From Alphaproteobacteria bacterium (lineage in GTDB: Bacteria; Pseudomonadota; Alphaproteobacteria; Micavibrionales; Micavibrionaceae), in assembly GCA_020443295.1 (NCBI GenBank), contig JAGRIJ010000043.1, positions 62,001-126,000 of the forward strand: DNA of 64,000 bases, in the 5' to 3' direction. Both the position numbers and the translations under genes were made by a program. Under the pieces are notes generated by a model, which had not been told where the DNA came from, did not search any database, and was given only the letters and a program-made list of their open reading frames with translations. Position 1 is the stretch's first letter. The number at the start of each line of letters is the position of its first letter. Below, piece after piece: positions 23,509-29,233 of this stretch.

Positions 23509-25182
23509 TCAAGCCGCTTTCGCCAGCAGGCCGTTATGCATCCATTTGCCGAACCAGCCCTGCACATCGGCCATGAGGTCTTCATCCTCCCCGTCTTCGG
23601 GCAGGGCTGCGGCCAAGGCCTCGCCTACCGGGACGCCCGCGAAGAGGGAGCTTAGGATCATATATTCGCGTTCCTCAAGATCGAGGCGCCAGAGCTGATC
23701 CTCATGACGGTAGATTGCCAGAAAGCTGGGGCGCTTTTGCGGGGCGGCGGGATTTTCCTCATCCAGAAACCGCTGATAGTATTCGTTCACGGGATAGGAA
23801 AAGGCGAAGAGTTTCAGCGCCTCGCGCGGCTTGAGTTTCAGGTCCATGAATTTTTCCGGATCAAGCCCGGCGAAGTCTTCGGGGATTAACGCCTGCGTTT
23901 CCGTTTCATCCGCAATCCGCGTAAGTTCGGTTTCAAGGATGGAGAGTTCATAGGCGAAAGGGTCGGCGTGCTGCTTGACCCATTCCGGGAATTTTCTGTT
24001 ATAGCGCGCGACGTTGAAATGGGTGGAGGGCGTAGCCTCGATGAATTCGTCGATCAGAACGTTGAATTTTTTTGTGCCGAGATAGTCTTTCAACGCGTCG
24101 TAGTCCATCGCCACGATGTCAAAGAGGCGGTAGCGGTAGCCGTTGATGTAAGCCTGAATCTGGTCCTGGGGAGAGAAATCCGGCTTCGGGATAATGCGTT
24201 CGTCCGGGTGCATGAGTTCGCCGTCGCCTTCGAGGATGGCATTCTGCATGTCTTCCATTTCGTCAGAAAGCGGCGTTAAACGTTCGGAGGGGCGGATGTT
24301 ATCGCGGAAGGATTTGAAAGTCGGGATCGGCACCGGTCCTTCGCTGGCTATCGCCCATTTTCTTGCCTTTTCAACCTCGGCCAGAACGACCGGGAAATCG
24401 GGGATTTTATCATCCCATTCGACCATGGTGCTGATCTCTCCCGCCTTGCTGATGACATAGCGGTAGAGCGACCAGACCTCGTCGATGACGTAATCGTCAT
24501 GCGTGTCGATAATGTGCGTGCCCTTGTTCGTATGTCCCGCGAGGTGAATCTGCGCCACGCGATCCAGCGGCAGCGCATCGATATAGGTTTTCGGGTCCCA
24601 GCGGTGGTTATAGCAACTGACGTAGATGTTGTTCACGTCGAGCAGAAGGCCGCAGCCGGACTCCTCCGCCATGCGGGCAATGAATTCCCACTCGCTCATG
24701 GTCGAGCAGGTGAATTCGAGATAGGTTGAGGGGTTTTCCAGCACGATGGGGCGCTCCAGAACATCCTGCACCTGCTTGATGCGGGAAACGATATGTTTGA
24801 GCGCCTCCTCCGTATAGGGAACTGGCAGGAGGTCGTGCGTATTCTTGTGCGCCGTGCCGGTCCAGCACAGATGGTCGGATATCCAGGGGGGATTCACCCA
24901 TGAGGCCAGTTTTTTGAGCTTTTGCAGGTATTCTGAATTGAGCGGGTCCACCGTGCCGACGGACAGCGAGACACCATGCATCACTACCGGGTAGTCTGCC
25001 AGAATTTTTTCAAGCATGCGGACGGGACGGCCATCCGTGTCCATATAATTTTCGGAGATGATCTCAAACCAGTTGATCTCCGGCTTGTGCTCGAAAATAT
25101 AAGGATAATGGGACGGGCGCAGGCCCATCCCATATCCGATTCTCTCAAAAGGAGACTTAGTCGTTGTAGCGGTTGTTGTCAT
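23509..25182 (-). CDS. MNIO (DUF692) peptide-modifying oxidase fused to a DUF2063 partner domain
   Basis: The N-terminal part (about residues 10-280) is a multinuclear non-heme iron oxidase of the DUF692/MbnB/BufB family. Its metal-site motifs are all visible: His69 (MHGVSLS), SDH at 102-104, Glu149 in LENPSTY, Asp182 in LLDVNN, His213 and His217 in HLAGH, His228 and Glu255 in EWDDKIP. The C-terminal part (about 335-550) is a DUF2063-type domain, normally a separate protein (BufC/HvfC) that presents the precursor peptide. MNIO enzymes oxidise Cys residues in RiPP precursors. The gene overlaps the end of the Cys-rich precursor gene by 26 nt and so is co-translated with it. No good ribosome site precedes the ATG. 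Confidence 0.93.
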   Translation of the reverse strand: MTTTATTTKSPFERIGYGMGLRPSHYPYIFEHKPEINWFEIISENYMDTDGRPVRMLEKILADYPVVMHGVSLSVGTVDPLNSEYLQKLKKLASWVNPPWISDHLCWTGTAHKNTHDLLPVPYTEEALKHIVSRIKQVQDVLERPIVLENPSTYLEFTCSTMSEWEFIARMAEESGCGLLLDVNNIYVSCYNHRWDPKTYIDALPLDRVAQIHLAGHTNKGTHIIDTHDDYVIDEVWSLYRYVISKAGEISTMVEWDDKIPDFPVVLAEVEKARKWAIASEGPVPIPTFKSFRDNIRPSERLTPLSDEMEDMQNAILEGDGELMHPDERIIPKPDFSPQDQIQAYINGYRYRLFDIVAMDYDALKDYLGTKKFNVLIDEFIEATPSTHFNVARYNRKFPEWVKQHADPFAYELSILETELTRIADETETQALIPEDFAGLDPEKFMDLKLKPREALKLFAFSYPVNEYYQRFLDEENPAAPQKRPSFLAIYRHEDQLWRLDLEEREYMILSSLFAGVPVGEALAAALPEDGEDEDLMADVQGWFGKWMHNGLLAKAA

Positions 25183-25534
25183 TGTGTCCGCTGCACTTTG
25201 CCTTGTTTTCGCAAGATGCTTTGCCCTGACAGCTCGACTTGGCCTGACATGAAGATTTTGCCTGACAGCTCGACTTCGTCTGACAGGAAGACTTGCCGTG
25301 ACAGGATGCCTTGCTGGAGCAAGAGCTTCCGCCTGTGGGCTTATCCGCGTTTTTACAGCTCATTTTGCTGTTGCATCCGCTTGCGCTGCAGCCGTTGCAG
25401 CCGTTGCTGCCGGAGCCTGCAAATGCCGGAGACGCAGAGAATGCGCCAACGGCGAGCATTCCTGCAAGCGCCACGGTTGCCAGTTTCTTGTTCACCTTGG
25501 CTCTCTTTGCCTCTTTCTTGACAGTTTTGGTCAT
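25157..25534 (-). CDS. Secreted Cys-repeat RiPP precursor, bufferin-like (precursor 1)
   Basis: This 125-residue peptide has a basic N-terminus and a Sec signal peptide ending near AFA (about residue 39). A low-complexity mature part with 12 Cys follows. After GCNGCSASGC come repeats of the form SC-x-x-K-S/A, with successive Cys mostly six residues apart (for example SCQAKSSC). The tail NDNNRYND is Cys-free. Together with the overlapping MNIO-DUF2063 gene this has the design of bufferin-type RiPPs, periplasmic peptides whose Cys are oxidised to bind copper in studied cases. The metal and the modification here are unproven. A GAAGGA ribosome site precedes the ATG, and an ECF-type promoter lies 59 bp upstream. 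Confidence 0.88.
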   Translation of the reverse strand: MTKTVKKEAKRAKVNKKLATVALAGMLAVGAFSASPAFAGSGSNGCNGCSASGCNSKMSCKNADKPTGGSSCSSKASCHGKSSCQTKSSCQAKSSCQAKSSCQGKASCENKAKCSGHNDNNRYND

Positions 25535-25592
25535 CAGTTTTTTCCTTCGTTAAAAAGTGATCAGTGTAAATTGCTTTACGATTTCGATTTGA

Positions 25593-25618
25593 TTCGTACG
25601 CATCGGAGCACAGGTTAC
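25593..25618 (-). promoter_or_regulatory. Candidate ECF-sigma promoter of precursor 1 and the MNIO gene
   Basis: Read on the minus strand, GTAACC (25618-25613) is followed after exactly 16 bp by CGAA (25596-25593). The same arrangement stands in front of precursor 2 at nearly the same distance from the start codon. A GTAACC-N16-CGAA element is, as I recall, the one reported for the heavy-metal-responsive sigma factor F of Caulobacter. That recollection should be checked. Confidence 0.65.
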
Positions 25619-25631
25619 ACGTTTTTTCAGA

Positions 25632-25669
25632 CAAAAAACAGAGACCCCGCAACAAAGCGCGGGGTCTCT
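25632..25669 (-). terminator. Intrinsic terminator downstream of precursor 2
   Basis: A perfect 11-bp stem (25640-25650 with 25659-25669, AGAGACCCCGC arms) with an 8-base loop is followed on the minus strand by GTTTTTT. It lies just after the stop of precursor 2 and upstream of the precursor 1 promoter, so the two precursors belong to separate transcription units. Confidence 0.85.
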
Positions 25670-25689
25670 TTATGTTATGACAATCAAAT

Positions 25690-26055
25690 TTATTCGTTGC
25701 CGTCCGGGTCTTCAACCGGGGTTTCGTCTTCAGTTTTTCCTTCACAGGAGGCCTTGCCCTGACAGGAGGCCTTGCCTTCTTCTTCAGTATTACCCTTGCA
25801 AGAGGCTTTTGCCTGACAGGAGGTTTTGCCCTCTTCCGGGGTTGCGGTTTCTTCGGCCTTGCCCTCGCATGAGGATTTGCCCTGGCAAGAACTGGCTTCG
25901 GCCTTGGGGTTGCAACCGTTGGCACTGCAACCGCTTGCCGCGGTGTCCGCCGCGAAGGTTTTCGTTGCGGTGAACGTGCCCGCCGCCATCAGACCGGCAA
26001 GCGCCACGGTTGCCAGCTTCTTGTTCAATTTCGATTTTTTGTCAGTGATTTTCAT
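25690..26055 (-). CDS. Secreted Cys-repeat RiPP precursor, bufferin-like (precursor 2)
   Basis: This 121-residue peptide is a paralog of precursor 1. The two share the leader NKKLATVALAG within a Sec signal peptide and the opening of the mature part (GCSANGCN against GCSASGCN). It has 8 Cys. Six of them are grouped in three pairs of form SC-x4-SC (SCQGKSSC, SCQAKASC, SCQGKASC), separated by Glu- and Thr-rich acidic linkers. The C-terminus is acidic (EDPDGNE). It has no modifying enzyme in its own transcription unit and presumably uses the neighbouring MNIO. An AGGGAC ribosome site precedes the ATG. Confidence 0.87.
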   Translation of the reverse strand: MKITDKKSKLNKKLATVALAGLMAAGTFTATKTFAADTAASGCSANGCNPKAEASSCQGKSSCEGKAEETATPEEGKTSCQAKASCKGNTEEEGKASCQGKASCEGKTEDETPVEDPDGNE

Positions 26056-26090
26056 CAGTCAGTCCCTTTTTAGTAAATTAAGATCCATGA

Positions 26091-26109
26091 AAAATTGACG
26101 ATCAATTTT
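26091..26109. promoter_or_regulatory. Perfect inverted repeat in the leader of precursor 2
   Basis: AAAATTGA and TCAATTTT are perfect 8-bp arms around the three bases CGA. The element lies between the candidate ECF promoter (8 bp from its -10) and the precursor 2 start codon. It could be an operator, or an AT-rich mRNA hairpin. No equivalent is present upstream of precursor 1. Confidence 0.4.
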
Positions 26110-26116
26110 CAGTACT

Positions 26117-26142
26117 TTCGAAATTACCCTTTTTTTCGTTAC
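26117..26142 (-). promoter_or_regulatory. Candidate ECF-sigma promoter of precursor 2
   Basis: On the minus strand GTAACG (26142-26137) and CGAA (26120-26117) are 16 bp apart, with the -10 element 62 bp before the ATG. Precursor 1 has GTAACC-N16-CGAA with 59 bp. The agreement in sequence, spacer and position argues that both are recognised by the same alternative sigma factor. Confidence 0.62.
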
Positions 26143-26151
26143 AGGAAAGCA

Positions 26152-26188
26152 TAGAAAAATTCCGGCCCCCCGATTTTAGGGGGCCGGA
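26152..26188 (-). terminator. Intrinsic terminator of the sigma/VWA operon
   Basis: A 10-bp perfect GC-rich stem (TCCGGCCCCC at 26161-26170 with 26179-26188) and an 8-base loop are followed on the minus strand by ATTTTTCT. It lies about 50 bp past the VWA gene stop and insulates it from the precursor promoters. Confidence 0.8.
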
Positions 26189-26235: not shown

Positions 26236-28698
26236 CTATTGGCGATGCTCAAAGGCCTTGGCAAGGCGGACGAGATTGATGAACTCTGTGCGATAGCCGA
26301 ATTCGTCAGCTCCCTTGCCGTCCTGAGCGAGGGCGATGACGTTATCAAGCGTGTAGTCCGCCATATTCACCTCTCCCCGCAAAATCTGGCCGAAAGCGGC
26401 TACAGCGACGGCAAAACGCGTATCGTCACTTGCCGAGGCCGGACAGGAGTCCGCGGGGCCGCATTCGATCTTTTGCAGGGCACGCTGATCGGCCGCCGTG
26501 ACCGGGCGGGTGATCAGGTGGCTCGTGTTTTCATTCGGCAGTTTGTAGCGAATCTTGAGGAAGGCGTATTCGTTCGCGAAGGGCGAGTCGGACGCCGTTT
26601 CCTCGATGGCCGGTTTCGCGGCGTCTTTCTGCGCGTAGCGGAGGTCATCCACGGTCCGTGCCGAAGCGCTGCCGACAGGAACGAATTCATAGATCGCGGT
26701 GACGGTGTGGCCCGCCCCCATATCGCCCGCATCGACCTTATCGTTATTAAAGTCTTCGCGGTTGAGGTGGCGCGTTTCATAGCCGATCAGACGGTATTCG
26801 GCGATCTTGGCCGTATTGAACTCTATCTGGAACTTTACGTCCTTGGCGATGGGGAACAGGGTTGAGCTTGCCTCATCGAGCAGAACTTTGCGCGCCTCGC
26901 TGAGCGTATCGATGTAGGCGGCGACGCCGTTACCGTTCTGCGCCAATGCCTGCATCAGGTCGTCGTTATAGTTGCCCTGCCCGAAACCAAGTACGGAAAG
27001 GAAGATTCCCGTCTCGCGCTTTTTGGCGACGTAATCCTTGAGCTGGTCGCGGTTGGTGATGCCGACGTTGAAATCGCCGTCGGTGGCGAGAATCACGCGG
27101 TTGACCGCTTCCTTGTTGAAGTTCTGCTCGGCCAGATTGTACGCCAGCTCGATCCCGGCCCCCCCGGCGGTCGATCCTCCGGCCTGCAGGTTATCAAGGG
27201 CGTTATAAATCGTGGAGCGCTCGGAAACCTTGGTGGGAGCCAGTACCGTTCCGGCCGCGCCCGCATAGACCACGATGGAGACCGTATCATCCGGCTGCAG
27301 GCTGTCGAGCAACAGTTTCATAGAGTTTTTCAGCAAAGGCAGCTTGTCCGGCGAATCCATGGAGCCGGACACGTCGAGCAGGAAGACAAGGTTGCTGTGC
27401 GGTTTTTCACCGGTGATCTCGTAGCCCTTGATGCCGATCTGCATCAGCTTGCGGCCTTGCGTCCACGGGGAATCGACAATCGTCACTGTCGGCTGGAAGG
27501 GTTCTTCGCGGCTTTCGGGTACGGGATAATTGTAATGGAAATAGTTGACCATTTCCTCAATCCGCACCGATTGAGCCGGAGGCAAGCGACCATTGTTCAG
27601 TTCGCGGCGCATGAAGCTGTAGCTGGCCGTATCCACATCCGATGAGAAGGTGGAGACCGGCTCTTCCTGTGCGACTTTGAAGCTGTTGGGCTTGTATTCC
27701 GGGAAACGGTCGCGGCCCTGCTCCTGATAATAGGGGCGCGGGTAATAGTCGGGCGGCGGGACAGGCACGGGCACCGGCTGCGGGTACGGATAAGGCTCGG
27801 GATAGATTACATTGCTTTGCCCGGCATAGCCCGGCGTTGTCGCGGCAGGAGCGCTCATGTCCTTATCTGCCATTTCGGCCCGGGGTGTTGTTTCCTTAGC
27901 TGTCTTATTTTTCAGGCTTGGAAAATAAAAACCCTTAGCGTTTGTATCAGTTGCGGAATTCTGCGCAGGTGCCGAACTGCCCTCTGCTTGGCTCTTCTTC
28001 AATTCAGCGACAGCCATACCTTCATCAGTCTTTGCTCTTGCGGCTGGATACTGATCAGATGTCGGCGCCTTCGGCTGTTCCGCATCCGCTCTGGACTCTT
28101 GTGCCAGTTGAAGACGGTCGGAGGGTGCTTCAATGGGGACAGGTATAGTGGAATTGCTCGATATGATCGCGCGTTCCATATCCTCCTCATTGGCTTCTTC
28201 AACCGCCTGAACATAAGCCGGAGAAGCTTCAGCCGTTCCGGGCGGGGTTGTTAACTCGGCAGGAGCTACTGCTGCTTGCTTGTTTTCATCTTTTCCGAAA
28301 AATCCAGAGAAATCCGGAAGGCTTGCTATTGAATAAGTCCTGTTTTCTGCTATGGAGCTAAAATTGTTTACTCCACCCCCACCGGTTGGCAAGCGCTCGG
28401 CGATGTTATTTTCACTAAAATTACCGTTAACCAGCAAAAGCGCTAGAGCCGTTGCAGCCACTCCTCCAAAAATCAGACCTTTCTTATTCATTTTCATATC
28501 CTTACTCCCTCTATCAGGCGTTGATCTGCCGATAAGACGGGAGAGGAACGAGGTTCCTTGGGCGGATTTTTGAGATTTTTCGTTCTGATGGGCCTTAAAT
28601 TCGGCCACGGCGAGGTTGACCGCCCGTTTTTGCGCGTTTTCGTCGACGGGCGGGACCTCGATATCGTCCATTATTTTCTTCAGCGCGGACTCATCCAT
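26236..28698 (-). CDS. YfbK-like von Willebrand factor A domain protein with anti-sigma-like N-terminus
   Basis: This protein has 820 residues. The first 65 (starting MDESALKKIMDDIEVPPVD) form a short cytoplasmic part, followed by one membrane helix (GLIFGGVAATALALLL). A long low-complexity linker rich in Pro and Ala then includes several PYPYPQPVPVPVPP-like runs. A YfbK-type N-terminal domain, a VWA domain with the metal-binding DVSGS motif at about residue 440, and a C-terminal DUF3520-like region complete it. The start overlaps the stop of the ECF sigma gene by 8 bp. Coupling plus the N-terminal layout suggest that it restrains the sigma factor and senses something in the periplasm. That role is inferred. 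VWA domains bind protein ligands through Mg. Confidence 0.85.
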   Translation of the reverse strand: MDESALKKIMDDIEVPPVDENAQKRAVNLAVAEFKAHQNEKSQKSAQGTSFLSRLIGRSTPDRGSKDMKMNKKGLIFGGVAATALALLLVNGNFSENNIAERLPTGGGGVNNFSSIAENRTYSIASLPDFSGFFGKDENKQAAVAPAELTTPPGTAEASPAYVQAVEEANEEDMERAIISSNSTIPVPIEAPSDRLQLAQESRADAEQPKAPTSDQYPAARAKTDEGMAVAELKKSQAEGSSAPAQNSATDTNAKGFYFPSLKNKTAKETTPRAEMADKDMSAPAATTPGYAGQSNVIYPEPYPYPQPVPVPVPPPDYYPRPYYQEQGRDRFPEYKPNSFKVAQEEPVSTFSSDVDTASYSFMRRELNNGRLPPAQSVRIEEMVNYFHYNYPVPESREEPFQPTVTIVDSPWTQGRKLMQIGIKGYEITGEKPHSNLVFLLDVSGSMDSPDKLPLLKNSMKLLLDSLQPDDTVSIVVYAGAAGTVLAPTKVSERSTIYNALDNLQAGGSTAGGAGIELAYNLAEQNFNKEAVNRVILATDGDFNVGITNRDQLKDYVAKKRETGIFLSVLGFGQGNYNDDLMQALAQNGNGVAAYIDTLSEARKVLLDEASSTLFPIAKDVKFQIEFNTAKIAEYRLIGYETRHLNREDFNNDKVDAGDMGAGHTVTAIYEFVPVGSASARTVDDLRYAQKDAAKPAIEETASDSPFANEYAFLKIRYKLPNENTSHLITRPVTAADQRALQKIECGPADSCPASASDDTRFAVAVAAFGQILRGEVNMADYTLDNVIALAQDGKGADEFGYRTEFINLVRLAKAFEHRQ

Positions 28699-29233
28699 AT
28701 TTCTTCTCCTTGCCGAAGAGGCTTTCCAGCTTCTTGCGGGCCTCATGGATGCGCCATGAGACGGTGCTTTCCTTAACCTCCAGAATCTGTGCGGCTTCCT
28801 TGTGCGATAGTCCCTCGCCTACGACCAGAAGCAGCGCCTCCTTCTCCCCTTCAGGGAGGGTCTGGATCTGCGCCCAGACCTGCTGCATGAGGATTTTGTC
28901 GTCGGGCGCGCTTTCCTCGGCTTTTATATTCGCGGCCTGCTCCATGTCGGTTGCGGGGTGGCGGTTCTGGGACTTGAACCAATCCTTGGCCGTGTTGATC
29001 ACGAGACGGTAAAGCCATGACGTGAAAGCCGAGTCATGACGGAAGGAATCCATGCCGCGGGCAAGCTTGATACAGGCTTCCTGCGTTATATCCTCTGCCG
29101 CTGTTCTGTCCCCGCACCATTTAAAGGCCATTTTGAACATAACCCTGTAATACTGGTTTGCCAGCGCCTCGAACGCGGCTGCATCACCGGTCTGCGCCCG
29201 TTTGATCAGCTCTGTGTTCTCAGCGTCCGGCAT
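28691..29233 (-). CDS. ECF-type RNA polymerase sigma factor
   Basis: This 180-residue sigma-70 family protein has region 2 at about residues 25-90 (the AEDITQEACIKL and SWLYRLVINTAKDW segments). Region 4 is at about 115-175 (LPEGEKEALLLVV, then LSHKEAAQILEVKESTVSWRIHEARKKL). There is no region 1.1 or 3, as in ECF factors. It is co-translated with the VWA membrane protein, a likely regulator. I found no GTAAC-N16-CGAA element in front of this gene, so there is no sign that it autoregulates through the promoter type seen at the precursor genes. Confidence 0.92.
   Translation of the reverse strand: MPDAENTELIKRAQTGDAAAFEALANQYYRVMFKMAFKWCGDRTAAEDITQEACIKLARGMDSFRHDSAFTSWLYRLVINTAKDWFKSQNRHPATDMEQAANIKAEESAPDDKILMQQVWAQIQTLPEGEKEALLLVVGEGLSHKEAAQILEVKESTVSWRIHEARKKLESLFGKEKKYG

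Follow-up and report, generated by a model that had tools for sequence, protein, structure and literature searches.

Predicted SigF-type promoters in front of two cysteine-rich precursor genes beside an MNIO-DUF2063 maturase in Micavibrionaceae

The window analyzed here, a stretch of 64,000 nucleotides from a genome of the family Micavibrionaceae (Alphaproteobacteria), encompasses, on its minus strand, a gene for a 557-aa maturase (23509..25182) and, upstream of it, two genes for cysteine-rich precursors. In the maturase, the MNIO domain (residues 17-276; PF05114, E 4e-110) is fused to a DUF2063 partner domain (residues 311-402 and beyond; PF09836, E 2e-11, over the cut-off); the protein scores 377.6 bits against NF050167 MNIO_BufB (cut-off 310), that is, it is of the BufB type, and is the only MNIO recovered in a search of the window genome. 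The same fusion recurs in several related genera and at L095 and L099, two loci of other alphaproteobacteria; wherever the locus was examined, the precursors are of the repeat type. Precursor 1 (25157..25534; 125 aa, 12 cysteines), the gene of which shares 26 bp with the start of that for the maturase, contains a signal peptide and KxSCxx repeats. Precursor 2 (25690..26055; 121 aa, signal peptide, 8 cysteines) is a paralogue with 42% identity to precursor 1 that lacks the C-terminal SGHND..RYND tail of the latter. The repeats conform to K-[AS]-S-C-[QE]-[GA]. Profile searches retrieved no Pfam or NCBIfam family for precursor 1; neither precursor matches DUF2282 (PF10048), the mark of Buf1, and neither contains the EGKCG repeats that define the Buf_EGKCG/oxazolin type.

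Each precursor gene is preceded by a sequence resembling an extracytoplasmic function (ECF) sigma factor promoter. The first, P1, is GTAACC-N16-CGAA at 25593-25618 of the minus strand (GTAACCTGTGCTCCGATGCGTACGAA), with the putative -35 box GTAACC at 25613-25618 and the putative -10 box CGAA at 25593-25596; it is conserved in two related genomes, G005 and G043. The second, P2, is GTAACG-N16-CGAA at 26117-26142, also on the minus strand (GTAACGAAAAAAAGGGTAATTTCGAA), with the corresponding boxes at 26137-26142 and 26117-26120. At both sites, the -35 box reads TGTAAC when extended by one base. The last base of CGAA lies 59 bp from the ATG of precursor 1 at 25534 (58 bases in between) and 62 bp from that of precursor 2 at 26055 (61 bases in between), and transcription would be expected to start at about 25585-25588 and 26109-26112, respectively. 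In these respects, namely, sequence, spacer, strand, and distance, the two elements are exactly as originally predicted. Each sits just downstream of a hairpin resembling an intrinsic terminator, one of 11 pairs with a T-rich tail (26161..26188, minus strand) between a YfbK-type gene and P2, and the other of 12 pairs with a T-rich tail (25640..25669, minus strand) between precursor 2 and P1. Thus, each precursor gene seems to open a separate transcription unit, and this accounts for there being two promoters. At the expected 5' end of the precursor 2 transcript, there is, additionally, a short hairpin-forming repeat, AAATTGA ... TCAATTT (26088-26110, minus strand), which also occurs in G043 and G005, and which lies just after the element in L031 and L032.

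The original prediction held that the agreement between the two elements was unlikely by chance. For the number of matches in the window, this does not stand: in shuffled versions of the window, with spacers of 15-17, a mean of 0.93 matches was obtained, and 27 of 100 shuffles contained at least two; with two mismatches allowed, there were 90 matches in the window versus 93 expected. The match count was therefore discarded as proof, and the argument from agreement needed evidence from outside the window. The matched position and the conservation of the elements, however, bear the claim out.

For this purpose, we used 54 maturase loci from 50 related genomes, which were selected by the enzyme rather than by the element. 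The element is present upstream of the maturase gene and on the same strand in 43 of these loci (spacer N16 in 34 and N15 in 9), although, the genomes being related, these counts do not represent independent events; a T precedes the element in 41 of the 43. On the opposite strand, none of the 54 upstream regions contains the element, and same-strand matches with any other spacer between 10 and 24 are equally missing. Of 719 other word pairs obtained by permutation, none occurs at more than 4 loci (mean, 0.45). Lack of enrichment upstream of related precursor genes had been named beforehand as the outcome that would speak against the promoters; instead, enrichment is strong (43 of 54 versus at most 4). 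When 30 family genomes are represented by one maturase locus each, the element is found with N16 on the same strand in 19, and in 24 when N15 is included (opposite strand, 0). The 11 loci without a perfect element include 1 that is cut short and 3 in which it occurs with a single mismatch. Alignment of four promoter regions from three species of the window genus shows GTAAC and CGAA to be invariant and the spacer to be divergent.

Beyond the family, 8 of 80 named maturase loci from many phyla contain the element, all of them in records of Alphaproteobacteria, Rickettsiales, Hyphomicrobium, or Rhodospirillaceae. The Caulobacter loci among these named matches (L133 and L143) lack it, and hence the published Caulobacter consensus, rather than Caulobacter DNA, served as the control. 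On the coding strand, L091, L095, and L096 contain matches toward the end of the maturase gene; these fall in a conserved protein motif and are probably coincidental. Loss of sigF in G031, considered as an explanation for the element-less locus L035, was rejected because the gene is merely cut by a contig end; sigF of G018 likewise lies at a contig end.

The Caulobacter consensus given in the original prediction proved right: the sigma-F element there is GTAACC-N16-CGAA, with transcription starts determined by 5' RACE (PMC3511200). The window genome encodes a single sigF-nrsF pair (an ECF16 sigma factor and a DUF1109 anti-sigma factor), which is located on another contig, unlinked to the operon. 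The sigF gene (G000:C45:2566-3132; 188 aa) overlaps nrsF by 4 bp, and the product of this adjoining gene matches PF06532 over the cut-off. SigF orthologues share 87% identity in G005, 77% in G043, and 63% in G004. In 27 of 28 NrsF homologues, including that of the window genome, two cysteines are located 50 residues apart, the same spacing as between C131 and C181 of Caulobacter NrsF (PMC3511200) and between C129 and C179 of the Bradyrhizobium anti-sigma factor (PMC3420878). Among 99 genomes, NrsF was detected in 41 of 50 with an MNIO versus 25 of 49 without one (Fisher p = 0.001, not corrected for relatedness). The presence of NrsF was not informative as a predictor of the element locus by locus, too few loci lacking either; in G017 and G089, genome searches detected the element and no NrsF, perhaps due to incomplete assembly.

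At two of the loci in other alphaproteobacteria, the regulator and the operon are adjacent. In L095 and L099, sigF-nrsF adjoins the orthologous operon with the fused MNIO; the element is found before the precursor gene and before sigF in L095, and before the precursor gene and a secreted msrB, which lies between the operon and sigF, in L099. In the window genome, a search of the region upstream of sigF detected no element, as in nearly all family members examined. The element precedes sigF itself in Caulobacter (PMC3511200) and the sigF-type gene of Bradyrhizobium (PMC3420878), as it does in L095. Such autoregulation is not a strict requirement of ECF16 systems. The sigF-nrsF pair of the window genome (L029:2566-3244, minus strand) begins approximately 35 bp after a tRNA-Pro gene and may be transcribed together with it or from an undetected promoter.

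Taken together, the enrichment in the family, the presence of the sigF-nrsF pair in the genome, and its linkage to the operon in two others support the proposal that one stress-responsive ECF sigma factor controls both units, with the refinement that this would be an unlinked SigF of the ECF16 type. Judging from these comparisons, both elements most likely represent the -35 and -10 boxes of promoters recognized by the SigF orthologue that is encoded, along with NrsF, elsewhere in the genome (probability, about 0.9).

Another ECF sigma factor is encoded much closer, at 28691-29233 on the minus strand, with a YfbK-type partner (both within 26236-29233). The partner combines an anti-sigma-like N-terminus, one apparent membrane segment, and von Willebrand domains. 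Because this gene lies on the same strand 2.5-3 kb upstream of the precursors, and its place is kept in three species of the genus, it could itself drive both units; shared or convergent specificity would then account for the similarity to the SigF consensus. We consider this very unlikely: the protein is only about 20% identical to SigF; the conserved block in its own upstream region is a different one, in which GTAAC-N16-CGAA does not occur; and G004 and G055 lack the gene in the flanks even though the operon and the element persist there (with a spacer of 15 in G055). The block upstream of the local ECF gene, about 45 bp long and almost invariant in three species, holds an inverted repeat, TCCTATTGTTATAGGA, a candidate autoregulatory site of this factor. 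The local ECF is a different sigma factor and probably not the driver of the precursor genes, for which SigF remains the preferred choice.

A genome-wide scan for TGTAAC-N15/16-CGAA yielded 11 matches in the window genome, whereas the reversed pattern gave 4. Matches positioned as promoters lie before the two precursor genes, a gene for a DUF2282 precursor, one for a secreted MsrB, and one for a secreted AhpC/TSA-like redoxin; in sister species, genes of these same kinds carry the element. Less exact matches are located before genes for a pirin and a thioredoxin; copies of the element that fall within coding sequences at other places in the genome were put down to chance. Across 29 family genomes, the element precedes relatives of MsrB in 14, with no case on the opposite strand and no more than 3 for any other permuted word, and it precedes the redoxin in 5. 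The putative regulon follows the ECF16 pattern of methionine sulfoxide repair, to which bufferins are added as in Caulobacter.

Alternatively, the conserved word might act as an operator, or as an element of the RNA, instead of as a promoter. Around the CGAA box in some members of the family (L043, L050, L052, L053, L293, L300, L302, and others), there is an inverted repeat with arms that are variable in sequence and yet complementary, for example, ATATACCCCTT-TGCGAATT-AAGGGGTATAT in L053. Centers of inverted repeats are over-represented at the CGAA box compared to the neighboring positions; the repeat is weak or absent at both window sites, and it is not a leader hairpin because its left arm is situated before the point at which transcription is expected to begin. 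Binding of SigF is not by itself sufficient to explain this repeat. Nevertheless, an operator or RNA element appears hardly credible, given the strict spacing of 15-16, the strand bias of 43 to 0, the identity of the word to an experimentally mapped promoter class (PMC3511200, PMC8315932, and PMC3420878), and its presence before unrelated genes of kinds known from ECF16 regulons (msrB, redoxin).

The DUF2282 bufferin precursor gene (G000:C7:6089-6436; L219:2090-2437) has a SigF-type promoter 56 bp before the gene. On one contig of the window genome, the gene order is ribF, DUF2282 precursor, lspA, and in G043, ribF, DUF2282 precursor, MNIO, DUF2063, lspA; G005 matches G043 up to the contig end. 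By this comparison, the MNIO and DUF2063 genes beside the precursor have been lost contiguously, with the SigF-type promoter retained. Either the fused enzyme would act on the orphan precursor in trans, or the gene is a relic. An extended scheme, in which the two KxSC-repeat proteins and the DUF2282 protein, although of unrelated classes, belong to one SigF regulon, a single fused MNIO-DUF2063 enzyme matures all three precursors, one of them in trans, and metal buffering is coupled to periplasmic methionine and thiol repair, is tentative and, in our estimation, rather unlikely in full.

In the mechanism that we propose, SigF binding, the positions of the transcription starts, switching by NrsF, and the modification of the precursors and their role with metals are all modeled on Caulobacter, Bradyrhizobium, and Brucella. 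In unstressed cells, NrsF, a six-helix membrane protein, would hold SigF; stress, sensed via the two conserved cysteines of NrsF, would release it. Free SigF would then start transcription from P1, which would drive precursor 1 together with the fused MNIO-DUF2063 maturase, and from P2, which would drive precursor 2 in a separate unit with a terminator of its own, as well as transcription of the unlinked DUF2282 bufferin precursor, secreted MsrB, and secreted redoxin genes. The precursors would be exported, their cysteines modified by the MNIO enzyme, and the products would bind copper or a similar soft metal.

With the element located before the secreted MsrB and secreted redoxin genes, oxidants may act as inducers in addition to metals. 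SigF could drive both units in response chiefly to an oxidant (peroxide, singlet oxygen, or hypochlorite), the peptides then belonging to a response to oxidative damage; this possibility does not conflict with the promoter assignment and has a substantial, if lesser, chance of being correct. The two repair enzymes in the regulon fit this possibility, as do the ECF16 systems of Bradyrhizobium and Brucella, for which the inducers are hypochlorite, peroxide, or reactive oxygen species (PMC3420878, PMC8315932). By contrast, Caulobacter SigF is induced by dichromate and cadmium, with no transcriptional response to peroxide (PMC3511200), and bufferins are reported to promote growth under copper stress (PMC12452194).

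The closest known counterpart is SigF-NrsF of Caulobacter (PMC3511200), with a regulon that consists mainly of bufferin operons, namely, two DUF2282-DUF692-DUF2063 operons, along with the sulfite oxidase-like gene YedY. Common to both are the GTAACC-N16-CGAA promoter over an operon of a precursor, DUF692 (MNIO), and DUF2063, an NrsF with two conserved cysteines, and a periplasmic methionine sulfoxide or sulfur redox gene in the regulon. Unlike in Caulobacter, the window precursors are of the repeat type rather than DUF2282 and are separately promoted, MNIO and DUF2063 form one protein, sigF-nrsF lies apart from the operon and is not preceded by the element, and the redox functions are MsrB and a redoxin instead of YedY.

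The ECF16 systems BcrS-AbcS of Brucella (PMC8315932) and EcfF-OsrA of Bradyrhizobium (PMC3420878) share the promoter word, which is written (T/C)GTAAC-N17-CGAA for the former and GTAAC(g,a)-N14-15-(c,t)CG(t,a) for the latter, the DUF1109 anti-sigma factor, and methionine sulfoxide reductase targets, Msr genes being shared among ECF16 regulons (PMC8315932); however, in the passages searched, no MNIO or bufferin targets are named and DUF692 goes unmentioned.

Bufferin and captophorin clusters (PMC12452194, PMC13097082) have the same arrangement, in which a cysteine-rich precursor with a signal peptide is immediately followed by a BufB-type MNIO and a DUF2063 domain, and both tandem and stand-alone precursors are known. 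However, the window precursors are neither Buf1 (DUF2282) nor EGKCG-repeat proteins, the sigma factor and NrsF genes in the survey accompany Buf1 but not Buf2 clusters whereas the SigF-type promoters here precede repeat-type precursors, and the MNIO-DUF2063 fusion does not figure in the passages of the survey consulted.

The kinds of promoter and regulon described here are already known; the new features are the pair of unclassified KxSC-repeat precursors with separate promoters, the fused MNIO-DUF2063 enzyme, and the orphaned DUF2282 precursor. The orphan was found via the promoter word, so that this pattern provides a simple search for unrecognized precursors. SigF control of MNIO-modified metal-binding peptides, which is experimental in Caulobacter, extends, by comparative genomics, across an uncultured alphaproteobacterial family and would reach a precursor class without a family model, with one promoter word tying metal-binding peptides to oxidative-repair enzymes.
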